Origin: Paenibacillus sp. FSL R7-0204
Lineage (GTDB): Bacteria > Bacillota > Bacilli > Paenibacillales > Paenibacillaceae
Assembly (NCBI RefSeq): GCF_038002225.1
Contig: NZ_JBBOCA010000001.1
Coordinates: forward strand, 2,604,001-2,668,000
DNA: 64,000 bases
Reading direction: 5' to 3'
Under the pieces are notes generated by a model. It ran no database searches and had not been told where the DNA came from. It saw only the letters and a program-made list of their open reading frames with translations. The translations under genes were made by a program, and so were the position numbers. This document shows, piece after piece, positions 6,036 through 61,145 of the stretch; within the stretch, counting starts at the first letter, position 1; the number at the start of each line of letters is the position of its first letter.

Positions 6036-6230
6036 TAAATGGAAAAACTCCAACTATTCCGGCGCGAAGTCATGCAAACGGTGAAGCAGTTGGATAAACA
6101 ACACTTAATCTGGCGGAATTCGGAGCTTTGGAGGAAAGTAGTGAAATTACATGGAGAAAATCCATTTATTGTCCAAAGGTGAAACGTTTAGGGGATTTTA
6201 AGTGGAGGAAATCCAACTGCTTTGTTTGAA
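6036..6230. repeat. Palindromic repeats with 51-bp spacing (four units)
   Basis: The gene-free stretch between 5993 and 6286 contains palindromic cores at 6040-6052 (TGGAAAAACTCCA), 6091-6103 (degenerate, TGGATAAACAACA), 6152-6164 (TGGAGAAAATCCA) and 6203-6215 (TGGAGGAAATCCA). The first pair is 51 bp apart and the last pair is 51 bp apart; the middle gap is 61 bp. No coding frame with a plausible start crosses them. See the arrays at 9.9, 23.3, 30.5, 48.2, 51.4 and 61.1 kb for the same spacing. Confidence 0.7.
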
Positions 6231-6286
6231 TCCACCCCGCTGGAGGGTTCCCATAAGTAAGCCGAATGATGAAATAAGTGCCTCTA

Positions 6287-7075
6287 TTAGCGGTCCGGCA
6301 AGGAAGGGGAATTCTCTAACCAGGCACGCTCGTTGTTCAGCACATAGATCCCGAGTGCCTGCTCAAAGGACAAGCCATGATTATAGAAAGCCAGCATCTT
6401 CGCGGCGAAGCGCACACTCTTATCTGCGCTGGGCGATTGCAGGAGCTCTGTTGCCAGCTTACGGAAATTCTTCGGCTGGGCTTCTGCAGCACTGGCGGCA
6501 TCCAGCAGCCCTTTGTGGCTTGGAAAAAGCAGCCGGTTATACGCCAGAATCATCCGCCCGCTGAAAAAAATCAGTTGGCCCGCCGTATGAGCGAGCAGGT
6601 AGGCGTCATTTTTTTTGCCCGCTTCCTTGGCGAAATACAGCCCGTATAGATAGATCTGGGCGCAGAAGTCCCGCAAATTGCGCTCGCGGTTCTCCTCAGG
6701 ATAGACGGGAATCCGGGCCACCAGCTCACCCAGATCCGGGATTCTGGAGAATAGCACCTCTGCACCGGTAAAAGCATACCTCGTCGGCTCATTGCCACGG
6801 CGGGCGGCAAGCTCCAGAAACCGGCGGTTGATTACCTTGATATCGGCATATCCGCCCTCATAGGTGCTGACTTCGCGGTCCACATAGGAGAGCTTGTCGT
6901 TCCGCTCATATTCCGCATAGGCTTCATCGGTGAAGACCAGATGGACATCCACATCCGAGGTCTCGCTGGCAGTTCCCTTGGATACTGATCCGCTGGTGAT
7001 TGCCGCCAGACAAGAAGGGTCTTGCTCCATCTTCTCCGCCAGCTTCCCCAGCGTCTGTCTGTGGTGCGCGTACAT
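6287..7075 (-). CDS. Nucleotidyltransferase-domain protein
   Basis: A 262-residue protein with the polymerase-beta-type nucleotidyltransferase motif GSVSKGTASETSDVDVHLV: GS, then the metal-binding DxD. The rest is helical and has no other motif I recognise; it could be a small-molecule nucleotidylyltransferase of the kanamycin/streptomycin-modifying fold or a toxin-type enzyme. The ATG at 7075 is preferred because AAGGAGG lies 11 bases upstream. A TTG at 7123 would add 16 residues with a weaker site. It follows the MFS gene on the same strand with an 83-base gap, so the two may be co-transcribed. Confidence 0.75.
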   Translation of the reverse strand: MYAHHRQTLGKLAEKMEQDPSCLAAITSGSVSKGTASETSDVDVHLVFTDEAYAEYERNDKLSYVDREVSTYEGGYADIKVINRRFLELAARRGNEPTRYAFTGAEVLFSRIPDLGELVARIPVYPEENRERNLRDFCAQIYLYGLYFAKEAGKKNDAYLLAHTAGQLIFFSGRMILAYNRLLFPSHKGLLDAASAAEAQPKNFRKLATELLQSPSADKSVRFAAKMLAFYNHGLSFEQALGIYVLNNERAWLENSPSLPDR

Positions 7076-7158
7076 ATTGCGTTCAGCCTCCTTGAATGAA
7101 TTCTGCTGCGTTAAGCGTATCAATTGGACAGCTTCCCAGCTATGGTCAATTCAGACAT

Positions 7159-8505
7159 TCAGGCTCCCGCCTGCTCCGTCTTCCCCTGACCGTTCTGCTG
7201 CTCTGCAGCACCGCTGCTGAGCAAGCCTCTCCGTCCGGCGAGGGTAACCGCCAGAATAGCTGCACCGGAGACGAGCAGAATGAGCGAGCCGGGAAGCCGG
7301 TCGAGGAGGACTCCATAGAGCAGCATTCCGAGGGGAGCGATGGAACCGGCGATGCCCTCTACCAGACCGAATACGCGTCCTCGGTACTCTTCCTGGGTAG
7401 TCTGCTGCAGATAAACCTGAATCGGAATGTTAATAACCATAATCATGACGCCGATGAGGACCAGCAGCGGCAGGAAGAGAAGGAAGGTGGCATTCGGGGA
7501 GAAATCAAGCAGCAGAGGCACCGCCAGCGCGAGGAATAATACTCCCAGTGCGCTTAATCCTCCGAGGATCGGCTTCACCGGACTCTTGCTCTGGGGAAGT
7601 ACAGCAAGCAGCAGCGACATCAGAAGTACGCCTGCCGCCAGCATCGCTTCGAGGACTCCATATTGCTTGGGGGAGAGTCCGAGCGTCTGTACTGCAACGT
7701 AGGGCAGCACAACATTCAGGGCGACGATGAAGAAATTAATACAGAACACAATCCCCATCAGGGAGCGGAGGACCGGACGGCGGAGCACATAAGCGAAGCC
7801 TTCCTTCAGATTCGTGCGGACCCCGTCAACAGCAGTGCCCAGACGTTCTCGGAGCGGCTGGGGGTCTGCGGCTTCGGCAGGTTCAAGGGCAGCTTGAAGC
7901 CGTGGAATCGGCTTGTATCTCAGCATGCAGCCCATCACGGTCGAAACGGTGAAGCCTGCCGCATTCAGCAGCATGAAATCCTGAAGGGGAAGGAAGGCAT
8001 ACAGAAGACCGGCGAGAACCGGAGCCAGCAGGTGGCCAGCCGATCCGGCAATCTGATTCAGTGATCCGGCCCGCTGGACGGAGCCGCTGTCTACAAGCAT
8101 CATCATCGAGGAGGAGACTGAGATACTATAGAAGGTAGAGCAGATAGATAATAGAATGAGCGACAGATAGATAGTCCATAGGGACATTCCCTCCAGCGAG
8201 ACAAACAGAAAGACCAGGGACATAATCAGGGCACTGGCCAGGTCCGAGCCGATCAGCAGCCTGCGGCGGTTAACTCTGTCGGCGAGCACACCGGCGAAGG
8301 GGGACAGCAGGATACCGGGCAGCAGCCCGCACAGCAGTGTAACGGCGAAGCTGCTCCCTGACCCAGTCTCATTCAGAATGAACAGACCGGCTACGAAGGT
8401 GTACATACTGGAGCCGAGTACTGAGGCCAGCTTGCTGCTGAAGAAGAGGAATATGTTACGGTTAGTCGCTGCCTTATCATGGGTTGCGGATGTTATTTGA
8501 GACAT
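7159..8505 (-). CDS. MFS transporter (drug/macrolide-efflux-like)
   Basis: A 448-residue membrane protein with about 12 hydrophobic segments. The loop between segments 2 and 3, GVLADRVNRRRLLIGSDL, is the MFS motif A (GxLaDrxxRr) and is characteristic of the macrolide exporter-like subgroup. AAGGGAG precedes the ATG at 8505. It is divergent from the XRE-TPR regulator at 8679, and the shared 173-base gap holds a long inverted repeat that may be an operator for both. Export of a toxic compound is a reasonable guess; the substrate is unknown. Confidence 0.85.
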   Translation of the reverse strand: MSQITSATHDKAATNRNIFLFFSSKLASVLGSSMYTFVAGLFILNETGSGSSFAVTLLCGLLPGILLSPFAGVLADRVNRRRLLIGSDLASALIMSLVFLFVSLEGMSLWTIYLSLILLSICSTFYSISVSSSMMMLVDSGSVQRAGSLNQIAGSAGHLLAPVLAGLLYAFLPLQDFMLLNAAGFTVSTVMGCMLRYKPIPRLQAALEPAEAADPQPLRERLGTAVDGVRTNLKEGFAYVLRRPVLRSLMGIVFCINFFIVALNVVLPYVAVQTLGLSPKQYGVLEAMLAAGVLLMSLLLAVLPQSKSPVKPILGGLSALGVLFLALAVPLLLDFSPNATFLLFLPLLVLIGVMIMVINIPIQVYLQQTTQEEYRGRVFGLVEGIAGSIAPLGMLLYGVLLDRLPGSLILLVSGAAILAVTLAGRRGLLSSGAAEQQNGQGKTEQAGA

Positions 8506-8524
8506 AATAGCACTCCCTTGGTCG

Positions 8525-8601
8525 AAAGTTAAATTTAATTAAACTTATTGTATGAGCGAAAGATCGGAAATGCAACATAAAGTTTAATATAATTTAACTT
8601 T
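8525..8601. promoter_or_regulatory. AT-rich inverted repeat between divergent MFS and XRE genes
   Basis: The arm at 8525-8546 (AAAGTTAAATTTAATTAAAC and two more bases) and the arm at 8580-8601 are inverted copies with 20 of 22 positions matching. Each arm is itself partly symmetric around TTTAATTAAA-like sequence. The arms lie about 20 bases upstream of the MFS start and about 80 bases upstream of the XRE start. The placement fits an operator bound by the neighbouring helix-turn-helix protein; binding is inferred. Confidence 0.6.
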
Positions 8602-8678
8602 TGGGTAATTCCAGCTTTCTCTTAGGGTATAGGTAAGCTATACTGAAAAGAAAAGCTACCCGGAAAGTTGGCAAGCAA

Positions 8679-9884
8679 ATGACCACCAAACAAACTATCG
8701 GAGAGAAAGTCAAGCAATTGCGCAAGTCTAAGGGACTTACGCAGACGGACCTCGCCGGAGACCATATGACTAAGAGCATGCTGAGTCAAATCGAGAATGG
8801 ACGCGCCTTGCCCTCGATGAACAGCCTGCAAGTTCTGGCCGGCAGGCTGGGAGTTGATCCGGGCTACTTCCTCGAAGGCGAGGAGGAGGCTGAGCTGGCT
8901 CCGCTTGTCCGGGAGATGGAGGCCGAGTTCAAGGCGAAGAATTACAGGGAGGTCATCCAGCGGCTCCGGCCGCTCATGGAGCGTACGCTTCCGATGACGA
9001 TTGATGCTGCACGTCTGCTGGAGTTCTATGTAAGCTCCCTTTTCTATACAGGTGCCGGAGGCGGGGAAGCAGAGCTTGCGCGGGCAGCGCTGATCTATGA
9101 ACGCTTCGGCTTATTTGTGGAACGGGCGAAAGTGCAGTATATTTCCTATGCCCTGAATTTCGCACAGAGCAGATATGCCGAAGGGCTGGAGCTGATCCGC
9201 CGGGTCCGCAGGGAGTACGAGGCTAACAAGGTGGGGAATGATTTTATCTTTGAAATCGATCTTCATTATGCCGAGAGCATTAGCTTGTCTGCCCTGGGGG
9301 ATTATGCGGGAAGCCGTGAAGCTGCATTAGCGGCGCTTCAGGTGTCGCGGGAAGAGGGAATCTACTATATGACGGATCATCTGTACCGGGTGCTCGGGAT
9401 TCTGGCGCTGACCGAAGGAGAGACCTTGGCGGCAGAGGAGGCCTTGAAGAAGGCCAGAGCATTCGCAGAATTCAGCGAATCTCAGGATTCGCTGAAGCTG
9501 GTGGTGATCGGAGAGATCAGACTTGCGGTAGCTAAGGGAGAATACAGCAAGGTTCTTGCGCTGGCGGAGCAGTATCCGCAGGAGGATGAACAGTACGCGC
9601 CAAGCGTTCAGCTCATGTGCGGCATCGCCTGGGTTCATCTCGGCCAGGACGATGAAGCGCTGATCTGCCTGTCCAAGGCCGAGCCGGGTGATCAGGTCTA
9701 CCACCCGCTTGACCGCAGCAATCTGTTGACAGCTTATGCTTACCGGGCACAGATCTATATGCGCCGGGACATGAAGGAGGAAGCACTGCGGCTGTCCCAA
9801 TTCGCCTATGATCAGGTGAAGGAATACCCTTCTTCCATATACACCGAAATGATCAACAAAACTTACCGCGAGCTGCATAGTTAG
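8679..9884 (+). CDS. XRE-type regulator with TPR domain
   Basis: A 401-residue protein. Residues about 8-60 form a Cro/CI helix-turn-helix (IGEKVKQLRKSKGLTQTDLA, then MLSQIENGRALPSMNSLQ). The rest is a series of helical TPR-like repeats (for example ALLYERF, LTEGETLAAEEALKKARAFA, IAWVHLGQDDEALICLSKAE). This layout resembles RNPP peptide-responsive regulators (PlcR/NprR/Rap class), but I saw no small pheromone gene next to it. The Shine-Dalgarno is weak (GGAAAG). It probably regulates the divergent exporter through the inverted repeat at 8525-8601. Confidence 0.85.
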   Translation: MTTKQTIGEKVKQLRKSKGLTQTDLAGDHMTKSMLSQIENGRALPSMNSLQVLAGRLGVDPGYFLEGEEEAELAPLVREMEAEFKAKNYREVIQRLRPLMERTLPMTIDAARLLEFYVSSLFYTGAGGGEAELARAALIYERFGLFVERAKVQYISYALNFAQSRYAEGLELIRRVRREYEANKVGNDFIFEIDLHYAESISLSALGDYAGSREAALAALQVSREEGIYYMTDHLYRVLGILALTEGETLAAEEALKKARAFAEFSESQDSLKLVVIGEIRLAVAKGEYSKVLALAEQYPQEDEQYAPSVQLMCGIAWVHLGQDDEALICLSKAEPGDQVYHPLDRSNLLTAYAYRAQIYMRRDMKEEALRLSQFAYDQVKEYPSSIYTEMINKTYRELHS

Positions 9885-9886
9885 AT

Positions 9887-10065
9887 TGTATTTCCTGCAA
9901 TAGAAAAGGCATAGCTGACCGTAAAATGAGAGTCTAATGTATTTCATACAGTAGAATATTGTGTTTTGGATGAAAAATGGCCTTTTTTCAACGTTCCATT
10001 GTATGGAATACAACAGATTCTATTTCAAAGCCTTTTTTACAGCATTCCGTTGTACAAAATGCAGT
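9887..10065. repeat. 51-bp-spaced palindromes, two direct then two inverted
   Basis: Downstream of the XRE gene, the motif TGTATTTCCTGCAATAGAA starts at 9887 and TGTATTTCATACAGTAGAA starts at 9938, 51 bp apart. The same motif then occurs on the opposite strand at 9994-10012 (reverse complement TGTATTCCATACAATGGAA) and 10045-10063, again 51 bp apart. The cores are palindromes of the TGTAT-N3-ATACA type. No gene is present in this stretch. Confidence 0.75.
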
Positions 10066-10108
10066 TGCGATCGTTCCAGCGCCTACAGCATCCTAGCACA
10101 GTAAACAA

Positions 10109-10132
10109 CACCCGTGCTATTCCGCACGGGTG
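10109..10132. terminator. Hairpin CACCCGTGC/GCACGGGTG
   Basis: A 9-bp perfect GC-rich stem with a 6-base loop, followed by CCCTTCTG. It could terminate transcription coming from the XRE gene. The T-run is short, so the strength is uncertain. Confidence 0.55.
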
Positions 10133-10189
10133 CCCTTCTGCAATGGAATATAGGTTGAACTATAAATCTTCAGATAAAGGAGGGAGCGA

Positions 10190-10362
10190 CGGAGGAGATT
10201 TTGGAACTGTAGGAGCGTAGCGTCCGCCTGAAAGCTTTCCGCAGGAAAGCTCGCTTCGGAAGCATCAGCAGTTTCCGGATTTCTACCGCTTAGAGCGGCA
10301 TAAATCAAGAAATTTGGAAACAACAGCGGCCGGAAGTCCAAAATCTCCGCAGTGGCGACTAC
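10190..10362 (+). repeat. Dispersed structured element, copy 1
   Basis: The outer ends TTTTGGAACT (from 10199) and AGTCCAAAA (to 10343) can pair. Inside lie a hairpin AGCTTTCC-GCA-GGAAAGCT (10233-10251) and a long inverted repeat with arms 10271-10284 and 10308-10321 around CCGC-TTAGA-GCGG. A related element is at 23565-23700 with the same ends but different arm sequences. It lies between a hairpin and the 3' end of the solute-binding-protein gene. It is either a structured RNA or a miniature mobile repeat. Confidence 0.6.
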
Positions 10363-10403
10363 TCCTTTGATCTGTGCATTTTAGCTCAAGCTATCTGAAA
10401 TGC

Positions 10404-12158
10404 TTATTTGCTGGTCCACAACGCCACACGGTCCTGCACATACTTGGTATAGCCAGCTTCCATTTTCTTAACGCCGGCTTTTTCCAGATCGGCCATATAA
10501 TCATCCCAGATTTTATCGAATTCAGCCGGTTTGGCCAGAATCGCCTGCGGGATGCGTTTCCACGTAATATCCTTCATTTTATTACCCAAGATGGAGACTT
10601 CATCCTCACCAGGGATAGCAATGTTCCAGGCAGCGCCGTACGCTTTTTCCTTGAATTCTTCCTCTTTCGGGAACAGATCCTTCCAGGTCGTAGCTTTGTA
10701 AGCGGCCAGCGTCTCTTTCTCAACATCGCTATAGCCCAGCACCAGCTGCTCAGGGAAGTTCTTGGTGTAGTAGTTGCCCGTGGAATCCTTGGCACCGTCA
10801 CCATAGTGAACCATCATGTTCCAGTAGAAGCCAATGCCCGTTTCCTTCGTGAAGGCGGTATTGTCGTTATTAATGCGGTCCTGGACTTCCTGCGGAACTA
10901 CGCGTTTGCCGTTCTCCACTTTGTAGTGCTTGCCTTCAATTCCCCAGTTGTTCAAGATCTGACCTTCATCGGAGGCCAGGAAATCCAGGAACTTGATAGT
11001 CCGCACCGGATCGGGGTTGGTCGAGGAGATCGCGATGCCATAGCCGCCCATGAAGCCGGTAGGCCAGAAGCTGGTTTCCTTGTATTCATCCGTCAGAGTG
11101 ACCGGATAATGTCCATAGGTCTGTTCGAATTTGCCAGCTGTTTTGAGGGCTTGCTGCGCGTCATTGTAGTCCCAGTCCTGGTCAATCAGGCCAAGCACGC
11201 GTCCAGTCGCTACTTTGGCTTTGTACTGGTCATATTTCTGCACAAAGCTCTCCTTGTCAAGCAGGCCGATATCGTTCATGTGGTTCAGCCAGCGGAAATA
11301 TTCCTTCTCTTCCGGACGGCGGAAGTGGTAGATCGCTTCATGAGTCTCCTGATCGACGTAATATTCACCGTCATCGGAGCCGCCGGTAGTTGCTACCGCA
11401 GGGTTGGTTACGGAAATGTACATATGCCAGTCGTCTGCATTCAGCGAGACGCCGATGTTCTTGTTGCCGTTCTCATCGGTAGGGTGCTTATCCAGGTAAG
11501 CTTTAATGACGTTCTCATAATCCTTGACGGTCTTAATCTCCGGATATCCGGCTTCCTTCACGACCCGGTGCTGCAGCTCGAAGCCGCCGCCCGCTACGAA
11601 TTTCTTCTCATCCACCGCTGCCCAGGTCGGGATCGCGTAGATCGATTGGTCTTCGTTCGTGTACTTGGCCCGGGCCAGATTGTCACCCAGTACCCGCTTA
11701 ATATTAGGAGCATATTTATCAATGAGATCGGTCAGGTCAATTACAGCGCCGGCGTCCACCAGCTTCCCGATGTCGCCTTTAGCCGAGATAATGTCGGGAT
11801 AATCCCCGCCCGCTGCAATGAGAGCAATCTTCTGCTGCGGATCACCGACCGCGAATTCGGCATCGAGGGTGACGCCGGTCTTTTGCGTAATGACAGTGCT
11901 GACCTCATCCTTCATATTGTTCCAGTTCGGATTAGGGTCTTCCGCGAAGAAGGATAGTGTCAGGGGACTTAAGTCCTCAGCCGCCGCCGTAGCTTCAGCC
12001 GTTGCGGTGGCATTGCCGCTGTTCGTAGCCTTGGCCCCGGTATTCTCAGCCGTATTCTTGTTGCCGTTAGTATTGCCTCCGCCGCAGCCTGCCAGCACAC
12101 TAAGCAGCAAGGTCAGCACCATCAGCGCCACAACCGGTTTCGCCGTCTTTCTTGTCAT
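10404..12158 (-). CDS. Sugar ABC transporter solute-binding lipoprotein
   Basis: A 584-residue extracellular binding protein. The signal peptide ends in the lipobox LLSVLAGCGGG, so the mature protein is anchored at its cysteine, followed by a Gly/Asn/Ala/Thr-rich linker. The body has the family-1 binding-protein fold (LTLSFFAEDPNPNW, AAGGDYPDII, FLASDEGQILNNWGIEG). This long form (LplA/YtcQ type) goes with carbohydrate transporters of Paenibacillus. It is the last gene of the operon kinase, regulator, two permeases, binding protein. No ATPase is encoded here; such systems usually share an MsmX-type ATPase. Confidence 0.9.
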   Translation of the reverse strand: MTRKTAKPVVALMVLTLLLSVLAGCGGGNTNGNKNTAENTGAKATNSGNATATAEATAAAEDLSPLTLSFFAEDPNPNWNNMKDEVSTVITQKTGVTLDAEFAVGDPQQKIALIAAGGDYPDIISAKGDIGKLVDAGAVIDLTDLIDKYAPNIKRVLGDNLARAKYTNEDQSIYAIPTWAAVDEKKFVAGGGFELQHRVVKEAGYPEIKTVKDYENVIKAYLDKHPTDENGNKNIGVSLNADDWHMYISVTNPAVATTGGSDDGEYYVDQETHEAIYHFRRPEEKEYFRWLNHMNDIGLLDKESFVQKYDQYKAKVATGRVLGLIDQDWDYNDAQQALKTAGKFEQTYGHYPVTLTDEYKETSFWPTGFMGGYGIAISSTNPDPVRTIKFLDFLASDEGQILNNWGIEGKHYKVENGKRVVPQEVQDRINNDNTAFTKETGIGFYWNMMVHYGDGAKDSTGNYYTKNFPEQLVLGYSDVEKETLAAYKATTWKDLFPKEEEFKEKAYGAAWNIAIPGEDEVSILGNKMKDITWKRIPQAILAKPAEFDKIWDDYMADLEKAGVKKMEAGYTKYVQDRVALWTSK

Positions 12159-12235
12159 GAATAGAAACCCTCCCTTTGTCTGGTGAAATCACATTGTATT
12201 CACAGGCGTCAGCCTGAAGATACCGCTTAAGCAGA

Positions 12236-13135: not shown

Positions 13136-13147
13136 GAGCAGGGCCTC

Positions 13148-14104: not shown

Positions 14105-14191
14105 TTATGTCCCTCCTTCGATATAGCTTTATCATAATCTGCCGCCAGGCCGGGAAACACCCGAAGATTTAAGTGTAAAAACAGGGAGAAA

Positions 14192-17567: not shown

Positions 17568-17593
17568 GAATGAAATCCCCTCCGTAGCACATT

Positions 17594-23274: not shown

Positions 23275-23318
23275 GCTTTTATTAATGGGGTGCCGCAACC
23301 CTACTCCCAAGTAAGAAG

Positions 23319-23494
23319 TGGAAAAAGAGCATTTAATTTCTCTGAAATCTTATAGTTGAGGATTTTAGATGGAAAAAGTACAACTGCTTAGCCGGAAACC
23401 TGCGTTTGGCGGGAGCTGGGCTGAATTAAATGCCCTTTTTCCAATTAAATTCCTCAGCGTACCCATCAGCCGGAAATTAGATGTACTTAATCCA
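23319..23494. repeat. 51-bp-spaced repeats, two direct then two inverted
   Basis: The core TGGAAAAAGAGCA starts at 23319 and TGGAAAAAGTACA at 23370, 51 bp apart. The inverted forms TGCCCTTTTTCCA (23431-23443) and TGTACTTAATCCA (23482-23494) follow, also 51 bp apart. The architecture is the same as at 9887-10065. The 602-base gap between glycerate kinase and cdaR holds the terminator, these repeats and the structured element at 23565, but no gene. Confidence 0.75.
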
Positions 23495-23564
23495 CCTATG
23501 ATCATGCTGAAATTTTAGCTTATAGAAGAAGCACTTAAGAAATTAACAAAAAGCAAAAAGAAGC

Positions 23565-23700
23565 GGAGGGGAAATTTGGAACTGGAGGAGCGTTAGCGAC
23601 CGCCTTTGTGTTTGGATTTCTACCGCGAGGAGCGTTTGAAATCAGGAAATCCAAACACAAGAGCGGCCGGAAGTCCAAATGTTCACCGCAGCGACGACCA
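23565..23700 (+). repeat. Dispersed structured element, copy 2
   Basis: Shares with 10190-10362 the outer ends (TTTGGAACTG near 23575 and GGCCGGAAGTCCAAA near 23665-23679), GGAGCG(T)TAGCG, GGATTTCTACCGC and a CCGCAG.GCGAC tail. The internal arms 23606-23620 and 23646-23660 form a perfect 15-bp inverted repeat whose sequence differs from copy 1 while pairing is kept. Copy 1's extra hairpin is missing here. Like copy 1, it ends close to the 3' end of a minus-strand gene. Confidence 0.6.
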
Positions 23701-23739
23701 GGCTTTGAGTTCTAATCGCAAGTGCTTCTTTTATAGTAT

Positions 23740-30462: not shown

Positions 30463-30660
30463 GAACAACTGAAAGGGAAAAATCCCTTTGAATTCACCAA
30501 AAGTGAGCGGGAGGCGGAAATGAGAGGTATAAATCCCACTGATTTATCCAGATACGCGCTAACTAAGTAAATGAAGAGGACAAGTGCCCCTGAATCAGGG
30601 GAAAGTTGGCTAAACGGGCAAATAAAGAGCACAAGTGCCCCTGAATTCGCCGGAAGCGGG
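30463..30660. repeat. 51-bp palindromic repeat array, four units
   Basis: The cores GGGAAAAATCCC (30475-30486), GGTATAAATCCC (30526-30537), GGACAAGTGCCC (30578-30589) and GCACAAGTGCCC (30629-30640) follow each other at 51, 52 and 51 bp. Each is followed by a TGAATT-like tail, and units 3 and 4 also contain CCCCTGAATCAGGGG-type symmetry. The unit is homologous to that of the 11-unit array at 51.4-52.0 kb. The 471-base gap holds this array and the uxuB terminator. Confidence 0.75.
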
Positions 30661-30780
30661 CCAACTCCGCAGTCTAATGTAATTTGTGCAGCAGAACGCA
30701 ACACTTAGCTAAGCGGACCGGTTTATACTCTAACTTCCCCGCCACCGGCCATCCCTGCAACCCTGTAACGCTCACCACCC

Positions 30781-48211: not shown

Positions 48212-48355
48212 TTGGGCGGAATGTGTGCGGAAAACCGGATACAATGCGCTGTCATGAGGGTGGGCGATCCAAATGTAATCGAAAAACCGATTACAATGCG
48301 CTGTCGCGAGACAGGTGAGCCGACTGTAATCGAAAAACCGATTACAGTCGGTCAA
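48212..48355. repeat. 51/52-bp palindromic repeat array, three units
   Basis: Hairpins of the form TGTAATCG-AAAAAC-CGATTACA recur with their AAAACC centres at 48231, 48283 and 48334, i.e. 52 and 51 bp apart. The first unit is degenerate, and the first two share the tail ATGCGCTGTC. A related pair lies at 61076-61140. Confidence 0.75.
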
Positions 48356-48369
48356 CGCGATTTTTCTAA

Positions 48370-49430: not shown

Positions 49431-49625
49431 TTTAATTATGATAGAGAGGAATAGCCGTGTTGTCAATCTCTAAGTTGGTCTGATCCGAGGTAATTAGGGG
49501 ACAATCAGAACTCTTTTCTCATTGGAAAAAAATAACTGTAAGCCAATTTACAGCCGAAGAGAAGCACCCGCCGCTATAAAATGATAGAATAATAGTCATA
49601 GTCTTATACAGGGAGTGAATTTCTT

Positions 49626-50141: not shown

Positions 50142-50148
50142 AAAAGGT

Positions 50149-50195
50149 GCCCCGTAGCCATGAATGAGGTTGATCAGGGGCTGCGGGGCTTTTTT
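50149..50195 (+). terminator. Rho-independent terminator after the stalk-domain gene
   Basis: GCCCCGTAGCC pairs with GGCTGCGGGGC (one G-U) across 19 bases and is followed by six T residues. Confidence 0.85.
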
Positions 50196-50229
50196 GTGCG
50201 GATGCGGATAGAGACGCTATACATTATTT

Positions 50230-50245
50230 TATAACACGTGTTATA
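50230..50245. promoter_or_regulatory. LacI operator upstream of its own gene (second LacI)
   Basis: TATAACACGTGTTATA is a perfect 16-bp palindrome 23 bases before the LacI start. The 14-bp core recurs at 52008-52021 before alpha-mannosidase. Confidence 0.85.
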
Positions 50246-50268
50246 CTTCCCTTGAGGTGCTGAAAAGT

Positions 50269-51315: not shown

Positions 51316-51407
51316 ATCATGGTGCAAGTAAAACTAAAATGTTAGCTGTTGGAGGTATTGGAGATATTCCGGTTGGTGGCATGGAGTGCGCCGGGTGGGC
51401 TGGAAAG

Positions 51408-51985
51408 TGGGCTGGAGAGGGATAAATCCCTCTGGCAAGGCTGAAAGTGAGCTGGAAGCTGGAAAGGGGGCTGGAGAGGGATAAATCCCTCTGGCAAGGC
51501 TGAAAGTGAGCTGGAAGCTGGAATGAGAGTGATAGATCCCTTTAATTTTGCTGAAAATGGGCTGGGAGCTGGAATGAGAGGGATAAATCCCTTTGAATTG
51601 GCTGAAAATGGGCTGGGAGCTGGAATGAGAGGGATAAATCCCTTTGAGTTGGCTGAAAATGGGCTGGAAGCTGGAATGAGAGGGATAAATCCCTTTAAGT
51701 TGGCTGGAAATGGGCTGGATGTGCTACTTGAGGTGAGCTAGATGAGCGAAAGAGGAGCACTAGTGCACCTGAATTTCTAGAAAGTTGGCTAGGCGAGCGA
51801 ATGAGGAGCACTAGTGCACTTGAATTTCTAGAAAGTTGGCTAGATGAGCGAAAGAGGAGCACTAGTGCACTTGAATTTCTAGAAAGTTGGCTAGATGAGC
51901 CAATGAGGAGCATAAGTGCACCTGAATTTCTAGAAAGTTGGCTAGGCGCAGGAATGAGGAGCACAAGTGCACCTGATCTCCGCCC
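51408..51985. repeat. 11-unit tandem array with 51-bp period and two palindrome types
   Basis: Six units carry GGGATAAATCCC-type cores at 51419, 51478, 51529, 51580, 51631 and 51682 (spacing 59, then four times 51). Five units carry GCACTAGTGC-type cores at 51757, 51808, 51859, 51910 and 51961 (all 51). Units of both types align across GAATGAG, TTGAATT and GCT-GAAA-TGGGCT. Because 51 is a multiple of three, the array has long open frames, but they lack initiation sites and are judged non-coding. The rest of 51316-52041 holds only the operator. Confidence 0.85.
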
Positions 51986-52007
51986 GCCCACCACTTTTGC
52001 CTGCTTA

Positions 52008-52021
52008 ATAACACGTGTTAT
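52008..52021. promoter_or_regulatory. LacI operator before alpha-mannosidase
   Basis: ATAACACGTGTTAT, the same core as at 50230-50245, ends 20 bases before the GH38 start. Confidence 0.85.
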
Positions 52022-52041
52022 AACAAAGGAGGAGAACGGAT

Positions 52042-55000: not shown

Positions 55001-55314
55001 TGAACCAGCCGCTTTTGGCCGTGGAAGGAGCCTACTCCGCGGGAGCCGGCAAATCCCTGATCACCTGCGATGCCCCGAACATTGCCATCGATGCCGTGAA
55101 GCTGGCGGAAGACGGCAGCGGCTGTATCGTCCGGCTGCATGAGTTCACCGGAACACGCTGCGCGGTGAATGTCAGCAGCCATTATGCTGTCTCCTCCTGG
55201 CAGCTGCGCGATCTGATGGAACGCCCGCTGGACACAGAAGCAGTAGAAGGTCCAGCGATCCGGCTTGATTTCAAGCCTTATGAGATCCATACGGTTCATT
55301 TGACTTTTGCCTGA
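52042..55314 (+). CDS. Alpha-mannosidase, GH38
   Basis: A 1090-residue intracellular enzyme. The GH38 domain has the zinc ligand motif IGHTHIDVAWLWRLTHTREK (about 240), the nucleophile Asp region LWLPDVFGYSWALPQIL (about 358), WYTYNGLIEPF-like substrate segments, and NQFHDIIPGSSIHEVY (about 575). An acidic Ser/Ala/Pro-rich insert at about 625-675 separates the helical domain from the beta-sandwich C-terminus. AAAGGAGGAGAACGGAT precedes the ATG. Operator sharing with the LacI gene upstream suggests induction by a mannose-containing sugar. Confidence 0.93.
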   Translation: MFWTEEKLGARLRELEGYRYRERIELEEWQVTEDLEGANGAYPPVLDGDRKLRTGEHWTGYDAYLWLHRKVTVPAEWQGKRVVGLFDFGRTGGGNNSGFESLLYLDGKPYQGVDSNHQEVFLEDGAAGRELELTFRLWSGLNGDGQLIPQEHKIKRAELAYLDESADNLYYTGRAALGTIKQLQDSQIQKHELLTALNKAFNLLDWSRPGSAAFYASVQEAESSLLADLSRLEQEHPVTVTAIGHTHIDVAWLWRLTHTREKAARSFSTVLRLMKEFPEYIFLQTQPQLYAYIKQDYPEIYSEIKERVEEGRWEAGGAMWLEADCNLTSGESLVRQILYGTKFFREEFGVDCKYLWLPDVFGYSWALPQILRKSGIDTFMTTKISWSQYNRMPHDTFQWRGIDGSEVLTHFITTPEGPDSGAWYYTYNGLIEPFSVQGIWEQYRDKNLNRELLLSYGYGDGGGGVNREMLEMRRRLDTMPGLPQVKTGRAAEYFERLHETIDATEEYVHTWDGELYLEYHRGTYTSQAYNKKMNRKLELLYREAEWLQMLWAAESGGFSQYPADSLLEGWQTILRNQFHDIIPGSSIHEVYQDSRVEYAEAEQLGLAARTAAVEGLVGLAFTSAADSLSAHDGLASVPAEDSPAELVSPPPAAQDDLPPAEAPVQTEYTLFNSAFFTAPRLATVPHDAENAVWTDAEGNRLTAQRSGGHWLVETAVVPAMGSTVIVAAESGGSEAAQPESSVPFHWQDSTLTTPYYILEWNGSGQLSRVFDRSAAREVLAPGECGNVLQVFEDKPKMFDAWDIDLYYQEKMRIISDLRSVKLTECGPLQAVLEFVWSYMDSTIIQKVKVYAGSARIDFETCVDWHEQHQLLKAAFPVAVRATEATYDIQFGNVKRPTHWNTSWDYARFESVGHQWADLSERGYGVSLLNDCKYGYDIKDHTMRLSLIKSATSPDRLADQGEHNFTYALLPHEGDWVAAGTVQEAWALNQPLLAVEGAYSAGAGKSLITCDAPNIAIDAVKLAEDGSGCIVRLHEFTGTRCAVNVSSHYAVSSWQLRDLMERPLDTEAVEGPAIRLDFKPYEIHTVHLTFA

Positions 55315-55329
55315 CGCACATCTAAAAGA

Positions 55330-55387
55330 CCGCCATTTTGGCAGGGGAGTTTTCATACACCCTGCCGAAATTGGCGGCCTTTTTTAT
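55330..55387. terminator. Bidirectional terminator between GH38 and ABC-F genes
   Basis: CCGCCATTTTGGCAGGG pairs with CCCTGCCGAAATTGGCGG. The plus strand ends in CCTTTTTTATT, and the minus strand in TTTTAGA. Confidence 0.8.
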
Positions 55388-55407
55388 TAAATACTTTTCC
55401 TGTACTC

Positions 55408-57153
55408 TTACATCAGCTTAATCAGTTCTTCCAGCTCAGCAACCAGACTTTTGGCAAGCTCGAAATTATTATCCTTCAGCGCCAGTTCTACCCGGGTTTC
55501 GGCTGCTTTCTTCTTCTGCTCCAGCTCCAGATAGTCTTTATCGAAATGCCGGGCATAAATCATCTTCTTGAATTTTTTGATCGTCATTTTGCGGACCGTC
55601 TTATCGTCAATAATCAGCACATAGTCCATCCCGTTGACCACGGAGTAGAAGTCATGCGAGATCATAAGAATCGCGCCCTTGTACTCCTGGATGGCTTGGT
55701 CCAGCGCGATTTGCGTGTAGGTGTCCAGATGGCTGGTCGGCTCGTCGAGCAGCAGGACATTGGCCTTCAGAGCAGACACCTTGGCCAGCTGTAACAAATT
55801 CTTTTCGCCGCCGGACAGGGCTGCTATTCTCTGGTTCACGATCTCGCCTTCAAAGCCGTAGCCTGCCAGATGGGAGCGGATCTCATCATACGTAGCCATC
55901 CCGGCCTCGATGAATTCTTCGAGCAGGGTGCTCGAATCCGTCAGCACTTCGCCTTGAAGCTGGGACAGATAAGCTACCGCAGCCTCCGGGCTGAGGGTTA
56001 TAGAGTCGTGCCGGCCCCGCGCGATATCGCGCAGCAGGGTTGTTTTGCCGGTACCGTTCGGACCGATCAGGGCGACTTTATCGCCAGCATTCAGCTCGAA
56101 GCTAACCTTGTCCAGCAGCAGCTCATCGAAGGCCGCCCGGTAATCCTGGACTGTCACTACAGGAGCATCAGTGTCCTGCGGCTCATGCACCATCCCCAAA
56201 TGAATCAGCGGCTGCTTAATGTCCACGAACGGCGCTTTGATTCTGCGGGCCTCCAGTCTTTCCTGGAACTTCACTCTCGCTTTCAGCGCCCTCCCTCTGG
56301 AGGCTTCTGAATTATACGTGGCGATCGCCCGGAGGTTGTCGATGATGTTCTCGTTGCGTTCAATCTCTTCCTGTTCGGCGAGGGCCAGCTCCTGCAGCTC
56401 TATTTTGGTCTGAAGCAGGGAGAGGTTGTATTCCAGATACCGGCCGTCAAACTCCTGAAGCTCCTTATTTTCCAGATGAATAATCTTATTAAAACAATGG
56501 TTAAGCAAATAACGGTTGTGCGTAACCACCAGCAGAATTCCCTTATGGGAGTTAATCAATTGCCGGAGCGCATTCAGGTTCTCGAAGTCCAGGAATACAT
56601 CCGGCTCATCCATAATCAGGAAGTCAGGACGGTTCAGCATTTCCTTCATGACCTGAACGAGCTTGAATTCCCCGCCGCTCAGCTCGGATACCTTGAGATC
56701 CCTGCGCTTCATGAGGTCTGCCAGATTCAGCTTTTTATGAATAAGGCTCTCGTAATCATCTCCGCCCAAGGCCTCAAAAGCGTCCAGAGCCAGTTGATAC
56801 TTCTCCAGCAGCGGCTCAATATCCGCCGAGGTCTCCATCTCAGTGCAGATGAGCTGTATTTCCTCCTGTAGCTTAATGAAGGGTCCGGCTATATATTCAA
56901 ACACGGTGGTGCCTAGCGACAAGTCCGGCTTGGCGAACTGGCTGACATACCCGATGCTGCAATCAGGCTCCATTTCAATGCTGCCGTCGAACAAATATCT
57001 GTCCCGGTCCATCAGGATGTCGATCAGGGTGCTTTTTCCGCTGCCGCTGGTTCCGATAAAAGCGCAATGCTGCGCCTCTTCGAGCGTAAACGAAATGTCA
57101 GTGTAGAGCTCTTTTTGCGGGAAGGAGAAGGACAGGTGTTGAACTTTAATCAT
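55408..57153 (-). CDS. ABC-F ATPase (ribosome-associated)
   Basis: A 581-residue soluble protein with two ABC domains. The first has Walker A IGTSGSGKSTLIDIL, signature SELSGGEFKLVQV and Walker B FLIMDEPDVFLD. The second has IGPNGTGKTTLLRDI, IAALSGGEKNLLQLAKV and VLLLDEPTSHLD. They are joined by a charged linker of about 80 residues and followed by a C-terminal coiled coil (YLELEQKKKAAETRVELALK). ABC-F proteins act on the ribosome as translation factors or antibiotic-protection proteins. Which type this is cannot be read by eye. ATG at 57153 after AGAAAGG; longer frames lack a site. Confidence 0.88.
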   Translation of the reverse strand: MIKVQHLSFSFPQKELYTDISFTLEEAQHCAFIGTSGSGKSTLIDILMDRDRYLFDGSIEMEPDCSIGYVSQFAKPDLSLGTTVFEYIAGPFIKLQEEIQLICTEMETSADIEPLLEKYQLALDAFEALGGDDYESLIHKKLNLADLMKRRDLKVSELSGGEFKLVQVMKEMLNRPDFLIMDEPDVFLDFENLNALRQLINSHKGILLVVTHNRYLLNHCFNKIIHLENKELQEFDGRYLEYNLSLLQTKIELQELALAEQEEIERNENIIDNLRAIATYNSEASRGRALKARVKFQERLEARRIKAPFVDIKQPLIHLGMVHEPQDTDAPVVTVQDYRAAFDELLLDKVSFELNAGDKVALIGPNGTGKTTLLRDIARGRHDSITLSPEAAVAYLSQLQGEVLTDSSTLLEEFIEAGMATYDEIRSHLAGYGFEGEIVNQRIAALSGGEKNLLQLAKVSALKANVLLLDEPTSHLDTYTQIALDQAIQEYKGAILMISHDFYSVVNGMDYVLIIDDKTVRKMTIKKFKKMIYARHFDKDYLELEQKKKAAETRVELALKDNNFELAKSLVAELEELIKLM

Positions 57154-57235
57154 AGGACTACCTTTCTGTGTAGCTGGAATGGAGTTTACCGTTGATAGCC
57201 TAACACTATTTCCTGATAACATCAATGATTCCGCG

Positions 57236-58144
57236 TTAAAGTTGTTCCTCCGGATTCACCGCTTCAATCTGTTTCCTTCCCGATGTTTGCCGGTAGATCC
57301 CCGGTGTGGTGCCGATAATCCGCTTGAAAACCAGATTGAACGTTGACGGATCGCGGTAGCCTACCTGCTCTGCAATGAGGTGAACGGGCGAATTGGGCTG
57401 CTGGACCAGCAGCAGACAGCTTTTCTGAATCCGGACGTTCTGCAGGTACCGGTAGAAGTTCTGCCCGGTATGCGCCTTGAACAGCCGCTGAAGATGCCGT
57501 TCACTCCAGTCGAAGCTGCGTGAGAGATGCGTCAGGGTAATCTCCTGCACATAGTTCAGGTGGACATAATTCAGAATCTGCAAAAATTGCGTCTGCTTGC
57601 CCAGCGGAAACTGAATCTCATCATGCTCCAGCCTGTAGATACTGATCAGAAGTTGAATGAACAGGGTCAGCAAATAGCTGTCCGAGCCGCTCTGCGGCAG
57701 GTGAAGCTCACGGTGAAGCGCCAGAAACAGGTTCTCTATGGAACCATTCAGATCCGTCAGGGAGAAGGAATGCAGCCGTTGTTCTCTGATCTGCTTCAGG
57801 TAGGAGGCAATCGGCGGGTCTTGAATCACGCAGGCAAGACGGTCCAGCAGCTCCGGCTTAAACAAACAATTGTACACGACGAGCGGCTCACGCAGAGAGC
57901 TGGGTGAAGACGGACGGAAGACATGGGACACGCCGACAGGAATGAAGTGCAGCTGGCCCTTGCCGGTCGGGTGAGCCTTCTGGCCGATATAATGAAATCC
58001 TTTGCCCTCGGCCACGAAGGTCAGCTCCATGAAGTCATGGGAGTGAAGCGGAAGATCATAGGTCTCGGTAGCGCGGTTCACATATAACAGGAGATTGCCC
58101 CGGAAGAAATACTCCCCTTTTAGCGTATGGTTGGCCGAATCCAT
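57236..58144 (-). CDS. AraC-family regulator
   Basis: A 302-residue protein with cupin domain (LPLHSHDFMELTFVAEGKGF, GQLHFIPVGVSHVFRPS) and helix-turn-helix pair (ITLTHLSRSFDWSERHLQRL, IAEQVGYRDPSTFNLVFKRI). GGAGGAGGGAACTG precedes the ATG. It is divergent from the rhamnosidase gene and is probably its rhamnose- or oligosaccharide-responsive activator. Confidence 0.92.
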   Translation of the reverse strand: MDSANHTLKGEYFFRGNLLLYVNRATETYDLPLHSHDFMELTFVAEGKGFHYIGQKAHPTGKGQLHFIPVGVSHVFRPSSPSSLREPLVVYNCLFKPELLDRLACVIQDPPIASYLKQIREQRLHSFSLTDLNGSIENLFLALHRELHLPQSGSDSYLLTLFIQLLISIYRLEHDEIQFPLGKQTQFLQILNYVHLNYVQEITLTHLSRSFDWSERHLQRLFKAHTGQNFYRYLQNVRIQKSCLLLVQQPNSPVHLIAEQVGYRDPSTFNLVFKRIIGTTPGIYRQTSGRKQIEAVNPEEQL

Positions 58145-58300
58145 CAGTTCCCTCCTCCAGATGGCATAAAGTCCTTTTTACCCCGGTGAAATGTCCATAT
58201 TGCAGGTCATGCAAACCATGCGGAATCCTATAATTGTAATAGAAAGCGCATCATATATACAGGTATACAGGATTAATCCTAAAAAAGTGAGGTGTATTCA

Positions 58301-60973
58301 ATGATAGCTATCCAAAAACCGCGAGTGGAGTACCAGGAGAATCCGCTGGGACTGGATATCCGCTTACCGAGAATCAGCTGGCAGGTGCATGCGGATGAGC
58401 GGGATGTGAGGCAGCAGGCGTATCAATTACAGGTGGCAGGCGCGGCGGATTTCGGGAGCGTGTGGTGGGATTCGGGCAGAGTGGAGTCCGGGGACTCCCT
58501 GCACATTGAGCTGAAGGAGCTGGAGCTGCAGTCCAGGACGCGTTATTATTACCGGGTGAAAATATGGGATCAGCATAATCGTCCCACGGAATGGTCCGAA
58601 GCGGCCTGGTGGGAGATGGGGCTGCTCTCGCCGGAGGAGTGGACCGCAGAATGGATTACGGCTCCGCTGGCCTGCCTTGCGGAAGATGCGGAGCAAAGTC
58701 CGCTGCTGCGCGGCTGCTTCCAGGTGGACCGGCCGCTCGCCCGGGCCCGGATCTATGTGACCAGTCTCGGGCTGTACGAGCTGGAGCTGAACGGAGTGCG
58801 GGTTGGAGATACTTATCTTAATCCTGGTTGGACCAGTTACAGCCACCGCCTGCAGTATCAGACGTATGATGTAACGGAACAACTGGTGGTTGGAGACAAT
58901 GTGGCCGGAGCTTGGCTCGGGAACGGCTGGTACAAAGGGAATCTCGGCTGGGAGCACAGGAAGCATATCTATGGCAACCGCACAGCGCTGCTGTTGCAGC
59001 TTCATCTCACCTATGAGGACGGCACGGAGCAGATCATAGGGAGCGGTCCGCAGTGGAAGGTGTTGCCCGGCCCGCTGCTGATGTCGGAGCTGTATCACGG
59101 GGAGATCTATGACGCCCGCCTGGCGCAGCACGGCTTCAGCCTGCCGGGGTATGACGACAAGCAGTGGCTGGCTGCGGAGATTCTTCCGTATGCCAAGAAT
59201 ATTCTGCTTGCACAGGAGAACGATCCGGTCCGGGCGGTCCAGGAATTGGCACCTGTTGCTCTCATCTGCACTCCGGCGGGGGAGACGGTGCTCGATATGG
59301 GCCAGAATATGGTCGGCTGGCTGCGGTTCACCGTAGATGGTCCGGCGGGTCAGGAATATCAGCTGCGGCATTTCGAGGTGCTGGATCAGCAGGGGAATGT
59401 ATATACCGAGAACCTGCGGACAGCCAGGCAGACCGTTACTTATATCACCGGAGGCGGGGGCCGGGAGAGCTTCCAGCCGCGTTTTACTTTCCAGGGCTTC
59501 CGGTATGTCCAGCTGATCGGCTTCCCGGACCCGCTGGATCTGCAGGACTTCACAGGCGTGGTGCTGCATTCCGATATGGAACCAACCGGCACCTTCACCT
59601 GCTCCAACCCACTGCTGAATCAGCTCCAGCACAACATCCTGTGGGGTCAAAAAGGGAATTTCGTCGATGTGCCAACCGACTGCCCGCAGCGCGATGAACG
59701 GCTCGGGTGGACCGGGGACGCGCAGATGTTCATCCGTACGGCGGCATATCTGATGAATGTGGCACCTTTTTTCAGCAAATGGCTGGGGGACTTGGCAGCG
59801 GATCAGCGAGAGGATGGAGGAGTTCCCTACGTGATTCCGCATGTATTGGGGGAGGAGGCACATTCCTCTGCGGCGTGGGGTGATGCAGCGGTCATTTGTC
59901 CGTGGACGATCTACCAGTGTTATGGGGATAAGCGGATTCTGGAGCAGCAGTACAGTAGTATGCAGGGCTGGGTGGAGTATATCCGCCGGCAGGGAAGCGG
60001 GGGGTTGCTGTGGAATACCGGCGTCCACTTCGGAGATTGGCTGGGCCTAGATGCCAAGGCGGACAGTCATGTGGGTGCTACGGACCGGAATTATATCGCA
60101 ACTGCCTTCTATGCTTATTCGGTCCAGCTGATGGCAAAAACGGCGAAGGTGCTGGGCCGGGCAGAAGATGTGGAGAAGTACTCGCAGCTTCATCACCGGG
60201 TCAGGGATGCGTTCAACCAAGCGTATATCCAACCAGCGGGGGAGGAAGGCCCGGCTACCCAAACAGCCTGTGTGCTGGCGTTGATGTTCGGACTAGTGGA
60301 GGGGAGTGCAAAGGACCGCACGGTAGCGAGACTTATACAGCTGCTGGAAGCGAGCGGGTATCACCTTACGACCGGCTTTGTTGGCACGCCTTACTTAAAT
60401 CCGGTGCTGGCGGATGCGGGGCATTACGAGGCTGCCTACAAGCTGCTGCTCCAGACGGACTATCCATCCTGGCTGTATCCGATTACCCGCGGCGCAACTA
60501 CGATCTGGGAGCACTGGGACGGAATTAAGGAAGACGGAAGCTTCTGGAGCAAGGAGATGAATTCCTTCAACCATTATGCTTACGGGGCAGTAGGGGACTT
60601 CCTGTACCGCTATGTGGCCGGGATCGAGCAGACAGAGGAAGGGCCGGGCTATAAGCAGTTCCTGATCCAGCCGCATCCGGGAGGCGGGCTCACCTCGGTT
60701 GCCGCCAGTCTGGAATCCATGTACGGGACGATCCGTTCTGAATGGACAATAGACTCTTCGAAAATCGGGTTGACCGCCGTGGTTCCCCCCAATACCTCGG
60801 CTACGGTGCTGTTGCCGGATGCCTTGCTGGCTGAAGTATCGGAGAGTGGGATGCGGAATGGACAGCCGCTTGAGCAGGTTCCCGGCATTCATTTCGCTGA
60901 GCAGCTGGCACAGGTGGTGAAGGTTACACTCGGCTCCGGGGAATACAGATTCCAGTATCCTTTGCAGAAGTAA
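58301..60973 (+). CDS. Alpha-L-rhamnosidase, GH78
   Basis: An 890-residue intracellular enzyme. The N-terminal beta-sandwich domains include QVDRPLARARIYVTSLGLYE and GDTYLNPGWTSYSHRLQYQT. The (alpha/alpha)6 catalytic domain carries the signature TDCPQRDERLGWTGDAQMF (about 465) with its acid residues, and later TTIWEHWDGIKEDGSFWSKE with the second Glu. The ATG at 58301, eight bases after GTGAGG, is preferred over a GTG at 58292. A TATAAT box is at 58229-58234. The gap also has GTATACAGGAT, identical to part of the site at 35601. Confidence 0.93.
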   Translation: MIAIQKPRVEYQENPLGLDIRLPRISWQVHADERDVRQQAYQLQVAGAADFGSVWWDSGRVESGDSLHIELKELELQSRTRYYYRVKIWDQHNRPTEWSEAAWWEMGLLSPEEWTAEWITAPLACLAEDAEQSPLLRGCFQVDRPLARARIYVTSLGLYELELNGVRVGDTYLNPGWTSYSHRLQYQTYDVTEQLVVGDNVAGAWLGNGWYKGNLGWEHRKHIYGNRTALLLQLHLTYEDGTEQIIGSGPQWKVLPGPLLMSELYHGEIYDARLAQHGFSLPGYDDKQWLAAEILPYAKNILLAQENDPVRAVQELAPVALICTPAGETVLDMGQNMVGWLRFTVDGPAGQEYQLRHFEVLDQQGNVYTENLRTARQTVTYITGGGGRESFQPRFTFQGFRYVQLIGFPDPLDLQDFTGVVLHSDMEPTGTFTCSNPLLNQLQHNILWGQKGNFVDVPTDCPQRDERLGWTGDAQMFIRTAAYLMNVAPFFSKWLGDLAADQREDGGVPYVIPHVLGEEAHSSAAWGDAAVICPWTIYQCYGDKRILEQQYSSMQGWVEYIRRQGSGGLLWNTGVHFGDWLGLDAKADSHVGATDRNYIATAFYAYSVQLMAKTAKVLGRAEDVEKYSQLHHRVRDAFNQAYIQPAGEEGPATQTACVLALMFGLVEGSAKDRTVARLIQLLEASGYHLTTGFVGTPYLNPVLADAGHYEAAYKLLLQTDYPSWLYPITRGATTIWEHWDGIKEDGSFWSKEMNSFNHYAYGAVGDFLYRYVAGIEQTEEGPGYKQFLIQPHPGGGLTSVAASLESMYGTIRSEWTIDSSKIGLTAVVPPNTSATVLLPDALLAEVSESGMRNGQPLEQVPGIHFAEQLAQVVKVTLGSGEYRFQYPLQK

Positions 60974-61018
60974 ACAGAGTGTAGACGGGGCATATCAGCG
61001 ACTGATAATGCTGCGATG

Positions 61019-61053
61019 CAGAGCCCTCGGGAGTACGGGGCTCTGTTTCTTTG
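61019..61053 (+). terminator. Terminator after rhamnosidase
   Basis: CAGAGCCC and GGGCTCTG pair across 11 bases, followed by TTTCTTTGTTG. Confidence 0.75.
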
Positions 61054-61071
61054 TTGTGCTGGAAAGTGCGA

Positions 61072-61145
61072 ATACATTGTGCCGGTGCTAGGGTGTGCGG
61101 GCCGAATGTAGGCGAAAAACCGAACACAATGTGCCGGTGCGGACG
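61072..61145. repeat. 52-bp repeat pair related to the 48.2-kb array
   Basis: The tail ATTGTGCCGGTGC (61076-61088) recurs as AATGTGCCGGTGC (61128-61140), 52 bp apart. Between them is TGTAGGCGAAAAACCGAACA, resembling the GAAAAACC hairpin centre at 48281. Apart from this and the terminator, 60974-61314 shows nothing else. Confidence 0.6.

Follow-up and report, generated by a model that had tools for sequence, protein, structure and literature searches.

Intergenic palindromes were analysed in a 64,000-bp stretch of the Paenibacillus sp. FSL R7-0204 chromosome (bases 2,604,001-2,668,000 of contig NZ_JBBOCA010000001.1; hereafter the window) and in further sequence of the same and of related genomes. 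Neighbouring palindromes are spaced by 51/52 bp, which is about five helical turns, or by 61/62 bp, about six, and they are organised in two designs, namely tandem arrays (families A, B and E) and a four-site element (families C and D). Both designs are located mostly in gaps without divergent promoters, their spacing outlives their sequence, and related copies are present at many loci. Our best explanation, to which we give about an even chance, is that these are mobile extragenic repeats carrying phased double-stranded sites for a putative dimeric DNA-binding protein.

Genome-wide spacing of intergenic palindromes

One hundred stretches of 20 kb were read in addition to the window, giving 2.064 Mb or 27% of the 7.6-Mb contig, and genes were called using a simple codon-score script. 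Sampled loci carry L-numbers and the other genomes compared G-numbers, G000 being the own genome. A gap was counted when a 40-bp stretch was identical at ≥ 27/40 positions to the sequence 51 (or 52) bp further on. Among 925 intergenic gaps of ≥ 80 bp, this applied to 36 gaps at lag 51 and 8 gaps at lag 52, and to 17, 15 and 7 gaps at the multiples 102, 153 and 154. Every remaining lag between 20 and 160 was found in ≤ 6 gaps, and the Markov control gave 0.0-0.2 gaps. The genome-wide 51-bp intergenic peak, whose absence an earlier sequence-only reading of the window had named as refuting its interpretation, is thus present (36 gaps; Markov control 0). Two of the 36 gaps (L050 and L285) were judged by eye to be genes overlooked by the caller. 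L050:13116-14380 is a collagen-like repeat gene with an internal period of 51 bp and is a false positive of the array scan.

Pairs of hairpin centres are enriched at the same distances, with 38 pairs at 51 bp (6.6 expected) and 29 at 102 bp (5.2 expected). Another dispersed element, in which ATATAAGAATTTATAT-like sequences are paired with CCGTCCTTTAAAAGGACGG at ~61-62 bp, was seen at L032, L035, L048, L287, L089 and L315. Since the hairpin-pair peak at 62 bp is partly due to this repeat, the 62-bp spacing is claimed from the symmetric-matrix and two-site-pattern results given below. A 41-bp spacing class seen with an asymmetric matrix was gone with centred symmetric matrices and is not claimed.

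Tandem arrays

Family A has the structure TGTAATCG-AAAAAC-CGATTACA and was found at 268 places of the genome at ≤ 3 mismatches (backward control, 0). Family B reads AATGA-(GGGATAAATCCC or GCACTAGTGC)-TGAATT, the flanks being common to both forms and the palindrome not. In family E (TCCTGCA-N5-TGCA), spacings are 51 bp (15) and 52 bp (11). An additional palindromic family (CGGACTGAG..., CGGACTGAGAATCCGCTATT) repeats near 50 bp at L049:13756-14589 and L312:10912-11440.

The claim that spacing is kept while sequence changes is borne out by family A. For 350 neighbouring hairpin pairs, taken from the own genome, five relatives and 80 further listed loci (some loci overlap, so that a few pairs are counted twice), the spacing was 51 bp in 267, 52 bp in 73, 50 bp in 6 and another value in four; hence 340/350 pairs are at 51/52 bp, while the linkers (unique, 19 nt) show a pairwise identity of 45%. 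Neighbouring family A units differ by 28 length changes to 1512 substitutions (0.019 per substitution). The baseline from 61 array-free orthologous gap pairs, 82 to 1011 (0.081), is ~4-fold higher, although pairs were kept only if their lengths were within 60 bp and divergence was < 35%, which lowers the baseline share of length changes. In arrays of ≥ 2 units, the edges tend to coincide with hairpin borders: linker-like sequence continues past the last unit at 17% of the edges downstream and 29% of those upstream, compared to 80% inside arrays and 0% in the background. Many family A arrays begin right after a terminator-like hairpin of a leading-strand gene (by eye).

Four-site element

Families C (TGGA-N5-TCCA) and D (TGTA-N5-TACA) represent two versions of the same four-site element type. 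Using centred symmetric matrices, all 23 own-genome clusters of ≥ 4 sites contain the order 51-61/62-51 (17 exactly 51-62-51, 4 exactly 51-61-51 and 2 longer), and 86/90 adjacent C/D sites are spaced 51, 61 or 62 bp. The reversed-sequence control had 138 sites and zero clusters. In 400 kb from relatives, three four-site clusters were found, each 51-62-51, and none in the reversed control.

The element at 9.9 kb of the window has copies of 80-89% identity dispersed at the sampled loci L298, L078, L082 and L090. Over 185 positions these differ from it by 21, 25, 29 and 39 substitutions, respectively, with zero length changes; for the 114 substitutions together, ~9 length changes would be expected, and none was seen between the outer sites. 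A more distant relative at L296 also aligns there without a gap. In D copies, similarity stops abruptly at the left and ~35-40 bp past the fourth site at the right. The flanks of the compared copies contain no evident target duplication, as judged without a systematic test.

The 23.3-kb element is present at the syntenic place in G088 (97% identity), G114 (89%) and G087 (85%), the G087 copy having a middle spacing of 62 instead of 61. It is missing from the syntenic gap of G113, G115, G101 and G112, which is 60-83 bp long there and contains a terminator-like hairpin.

Breadth across genomes

For the comparison between genomes, a pattern of two TGTA-N5-TACA sites with a free separation of 41-71 bp was used, for which ~0.05 chance matches are expected per 7-Mb genome. 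It matched 54/100 genomes of the genus, with 94/95 pairs among those listed at 50-52 or 60-62 bp (94 of the 95 from five genomes). In the order, 88/296 genomes matched, belonging to 16/48 genera; outside the genus, 81/82 pairs among those listed are at 50-52 or 61-63 bp, 68 of the 82 coming from genus g176. Complete four-site elements of this genus have spacings of 52-62-52 (G599) and 51-62-51 (G625). Many listed pairs are related copies of one another and thus not independent trials. Since the backward control reached up to 2 matches in a genome, genomes with just one or two matches prove little singly. The exact family A pattern was found in 25/100 genus genomes, four of these with one or two matches only. 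Among the matches listed, family A is mostly from Paenibacillus (P. tritici, P. piscarius, P. phytohabitans, P. silagei, P. tepidiphilus and others), with single matches in a Bacteroidales metagenome-assembled genome and in Neiella. The rarity of length changes together with the order-wide recurrence argues for constraint on the geometry, for which selection had been proposed from the window.

Arm variation and folding

In 76 clustered D sites, the two arms match at 502 of 760 positions, compared to 514 expected if independent; the mismatches are G.T (80), A.C (78) and other (100). D arms therefore vary independently, which appears as for double-stranded protein sites with degenerate half-sites rather than for hairpins. 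Families B and B2 are also near independence (225/222 and 267/260 observed/expected). Family A has 2213 matches compared to 2153 expected, of 2789, the excess coming from one column pair; pooled C/D arms give 779/757, with the excess confined to the two columns separating C from D. Folding singles out neither strand, since the complement folds better for A and the leading strand for B.

Orientation and placement

According to GC skew, the origin is at ~0.15-0.26 Mb and the terminus at 3.73-3.78 Mb. Because the Bacillus subtilis dif sequence had no match in the genome, the terminus was placed from GC skew alone. Families A, B and E run along the leading strand in 46/47 profile gaps of the own genome. 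Convergent gaps, for which no preference arises from transcription, have a ratio of 20:1 with replication (two-sided binomial, ~2e-5), and in two gaps between lagging genes the arrays likewise follow replication. C-only gaps (4/51) were left out of this count because family C is symmetric; counting them too, the overall ratio is 50:1 and that for convergent gaps 23:1 (p = 3e-6). Neither C nor D elements have a direction. The sole own-genome exception, L060 at 3.72 Mb, is within ~55 kb of the skew switch. Whole-genome patterns agree with replication for 32/32 family B matches and, among the matches listed (100 of 268), for 100/100 of family A.

In G007, a single origin and a single terminus would account for 64/65 matches, and in G063 the 40 matches on the + strand all lie before 3.96 Mb, with 11 on the - strand. 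In other species, array direction agrees with the 8-kb GC skew, a noisy strand guide there, in 62/77 gaps and disagrees in 15. Arrays of G011, G025 and G022 at one shared place oppose the local skew, and at L117 and L155 array units occur on both strands within one gap. G028 has 3 family A matches on + and 53 on -, unlike the near-even split of the own genome and G007, and includes a + pair at 5.31 Mb between - matches at 4.63 and 5.82 Mb.

Replication-polar sites are known from other systems, examples being Ter, KOPS/SRS and Chi. The asymmetric arrays could likewise be host-functional sites acting on forks or DNA translocases, with their direction fixed by selection; the near-strict leading-strand direction, the convergent and lag-lag gaps, the whole-genome patterns, G007 and the + matches of G063 are what this would predict. 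We nevertheless consider it unlikely: arrays come and go between species whose flanks are ~85-95% identical, the sequences are very different between families, C/D elements have no orientation, and the exceptions listed above (L060, L117, L155, the 15 skew-opposed gaps, G011/G025/G022 and G028) do not follow the rule.

By gap type, A/B/C/E profile arrays occupy 24/123 convergent, 23/556 co-directional and 0/167 divergent gaps of the own genome (convergent vs. divergent, p = 3e-10). Clusters of ≥ 2 C/D sites are placed in 18 convergent, 14 co-directional and 1 divergent gap, 3 are inside called genes and 4 at stretch edges; in other species, 2/77 array gaps are divergent. The location is extragenic and avoids promoters, as in REP repeats. 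This scarcity in promoter gaps, the replication orientation and the 51-62-51 element go beyond what had been noticed in the window.

Possible mobility and Y1 transposases

Presence and absence differ among relatives at 6.0, 23.3 and 60.97 kb, and the array at 48.2 kb varies from 1 to 6 units between the window and five relatives (by eye). Dispersed copies and presence/absence among close species favour mobility of what would be a spreading element. At 30.5 kb, relatives carry different palindromes in the same gap, as had been suggested for a check: the own genome, G115 and G101 have GGGATAAATCCC plus GCACAAGTGC types, whereas G087, G113 and G112 have GTGTATAAATGCAC or GCATTAATG (by eye). The two sets may be separate arrivals because the terminators around them differ.

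REP/REPIN/BIME repeats with their Y1 transposase RAYT are known from enterobacteria and Pseudomonas. In the own genome, the Y1 family PF01797 had ten matches in eight loci, and the three loci inspected look IS605-like with TnpB (by eye). The IS200/605-type loci are split 7 leading to 1 lagging, which is in line with the known transposition of IS200/605 on the lagging-strand template. PF01797 had zero matches in 11 of the 25 family-A genomes, among them G112 (single contig, 337 exact A matches), G109 (117), G119 (97) and G063 (51); the remaining 14, own genome included, had 1 to 12. Hence, at least at present, the repeats do not depend on the REP/RAYT machinery as known.

The repeats could still be single-stranded hairpins of the REP/BIME kind, which a Y1 (RAYT-like) or another single-strand enzyme would copy on the lagging-strand template. 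Units do form hairpins, are extragenic, occur in tandem and inverted arrangements and are oriented with replication, and the 7:1 split of the IS200/605-type genes fits as well. The Y1-less genomes, the IS605-like appearance of the inspected loci and the D arms without covariation point the other way, and such hairpins should be insensitive to the precise length of the linker; we consider this reading distinctly improbable. The likeness to REP/REPIN/BIME repeats extends to dispersed extragenic palindromes that are single, inverted or in tandem, lie at gene 3' ends and form many families per clade. The differences are the lack of the Y1 gene in 11/25 family-A genomes, a spacing restricted to 51/52 and 61/62 bp, replication-oriented tandem forms and D arms without covariation.

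Interpretation

Three findings taken together, namely spacing held at whole turns, linkers that drift and arms that vary independently, favour a nucleoprotein complex on double-stranded DNA. Geometry and mobility are united if copying or retention of the element needs a correctly phased complex. Under our preferred reading of phased sites on mobile repeats, one dimer of a putative DNA-binding protein would occupy each palindrome, and whole-turn spacing would put neighbouring dimers on one DNA face, forming a complex of fixed size. Wrongly spaced copies would not be bound and so would be neither copied nor kept. Spread or survival of the asymmetric arrays may be tied to fork passage, which would fix their direction. 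We slightly prefer a mobilising complex, that is, a selfish element, over one organising the host's chromosome. A dimeric protein had been one of three ideas put forward in the sequence-only reading and is the best supported of them, albeit putative and resting on geometry and arm independence. Another, a self-propagating family, appears partly right and fits the dispersed copies of the 9.9-kb element.

Several points weigh against phased double-stranded sites. On both strands, families A and B fold more stably than shuffled sequences, and the centre of family A units stays A-rich and asymmetric, so that A, B and E may act as hairpins or in single-stranded form. Hairpins would likewise account for the difference between the two B types on both arms. 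The D matrix picks sites by a conserved half-site, so that the invariance of TG and A in D sites is not independent evidence. The 23.3-kb element and its G087 counterpart differ by one length change where ~two are expected, so that this locus alone fails to show length constraint. Free B-DNA usually has 10.5 bp per turn, and whole turns at the spacings found need slightly fewer, 10.2-10.3. No binding protein was identified, and among mobility enzymes the search covered Y1 transposases only.

A wider reading is also conceivable, though we advance it only tentatively: the repeats would be an order-wide, so far undescribed class of chromosomal nucleoprotein sites with one geometry (5-6-5 or 5-5-5... 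turns), the spacing would be read by one relaxed or several related putative dimers, and the asymmetric form would be fork-polar.

Neutral slippage, with 51 bp an accident of descent, is disfavoured and very improbable. Orthologous gaps do differ in copy number (48.2 kb) and edges are degenerate, as slippage would have it, but one spacing is shared by several families and many genera, length changes are too few, orientation is near-strict in the own genome and the four-site design is fixed. Least probable are structured 3' transcripts or terminator-like RNA; a structured transcript was the remaining idea of the sequence-only reading and is not supported. While arrays are downstream of genes and the folding of A and B beyond shuffles would suit them, many A arrays already follow a terminator-like hairpin, orientation in convergent gaps tracks replication, covariation is none in D and little elsewhere, and Rfam had 0 matches in the window at gathering score. 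A protein-coding repeat (51 bp = 17 codons) was rejected, as the 52-, 59- and 62-bp spacings break the frame and the 30.5-kb array contains stops (by eye).

Window loci

Palindromes were confirmed at all seven loci of the window at which they had been described, and their site coordinates were determined (Table 1). A spacing of 51, sometimes 52 bp, as originally described, holds for four loci (with one 59 at 51.4 kb), but the other three each contain one 61/62-bp spacing. Likewise, the palindrome sequence varies between loci, but the seven loci reduce to four families, of which C and D are variants of one element. Family A accounts for the loci at 48.2 and 61.1 kb, family B for those at 30.5 and 51.4 kb, family C for those at 6.0 and 23.3 kb, and family D for the one at 9.9 kb.

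Table 1. Palindrome-bearing features of the window (window coordinates).
Feature	Position	Strand	Sites or units
Family C four-palindrome element	6035..6220	none	6035-6057, 6086-6108, 6147-6169, 6198-6220; 51-61-51; symmetric site matrix
Family D four-palindrome element	9882..10068	none	9882-9904, 9933-9955, 9995-10017, 10046-10068; 51-62-51
Family C four-palindrome element	23314..23499	none	23314-23336, 23365-23387, 23426-23448, 23477-23499; 51-61-51
Family B tandem array	30470..30661	+ (leading strand)	four units at 51 bp, GGGATAAATCCC-like and GCACAAGTGC-like
Family A tandem array	48219..48351	+	TGTAATCG-AAAAAC-CGATTACA, three units at 52 and 51 bp
Family B array	51415..51979	+	11 profile hits: six GGGATAAATCCC type, then five GCACTAGTGC type
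Family A	61069..61139	+	one complete and one partial unit, 52 bp apart, past a terminator-like hairpin (by eye)

The 6.0-kb element sits in the convergent gap 5905-6286, and the 48.2-kb array begins directly past a terminator-like hairpin and T-run (by eye). At 51.4-52.0 kb, spacing is 51 bp inside each sub-array, with the single 59 in the first, and ~74 bp between the sub-arrays. A separate interspersed element of ~200 bp (GGAGGGAGCGACGGAGGAGATTTTGGAACTGTAGGAGCG...) is located at 10180-10400 and 23570-23720 of the window and is present as well in G087, G113, G115 and G101, in the gap orthologous to that at 9.9 kb.

Comparison with other repeats and significance

A full-text literature search (PMC), in which most subscription journals are not covered, found no description of these repeats. 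According to PMC3532100, STAR elements of staphylococci consist of an intergenic motif with 40-44 bp spacers in tandem units of ~50 bp, variable in number and with spacers distinct per locus. The repeats described here share the ~50-bp tandem intergenic units, the variable number and the locus-specific spacers; they differ in forming several families, whereas STAR keeps one motif (PMC3532100). Membership was rejected since the 14-bp STAR motif had 0 matches in G000. In G414, of the same class, this 14-mer had nine matches with four strand changes along the genome. At G498:C1:1609306-1609621, in another family of the class, six STAR-like 14-mers stand in tandem at 60-61 bp.

Miniature inverted-repeat elements such as BOX, RUP and CIR resemble the repeats in their short dispersed copies, defined ends and presence/absence differences, but the four internal phased sites and a geometry common to several genera set the latter apart. 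No target duplication or terminal repeat has been identified so far; duplications were not tested systematically and no parent element was sought. In the sopC locus of the F plasmid, each tandem unit likewise spans a few helical turns and contains a palindrome, which in sopC is bound by a dimer. Here, many chromosomal loci and several sequence families are involved, and the likeness rests on geometry and arm independence; no partner protein was identified and none sought beyond Y1.

Bacterial intergenic repeats are usually classed by sequence, whereas here geometry is kept across genera and sequence is not. This points to a DNA-binding system for which no name was found in the literature searched, and it predicts a protein that binds 51-62-51 in preference to copies shifted by half a turn. 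From the direction of the tandem form it may be possible to learn how replication forks act on repeat families, or to find a fork-polar site. As copy number at the same gap varies between species, the arrays could perhaps be used as typing markers.

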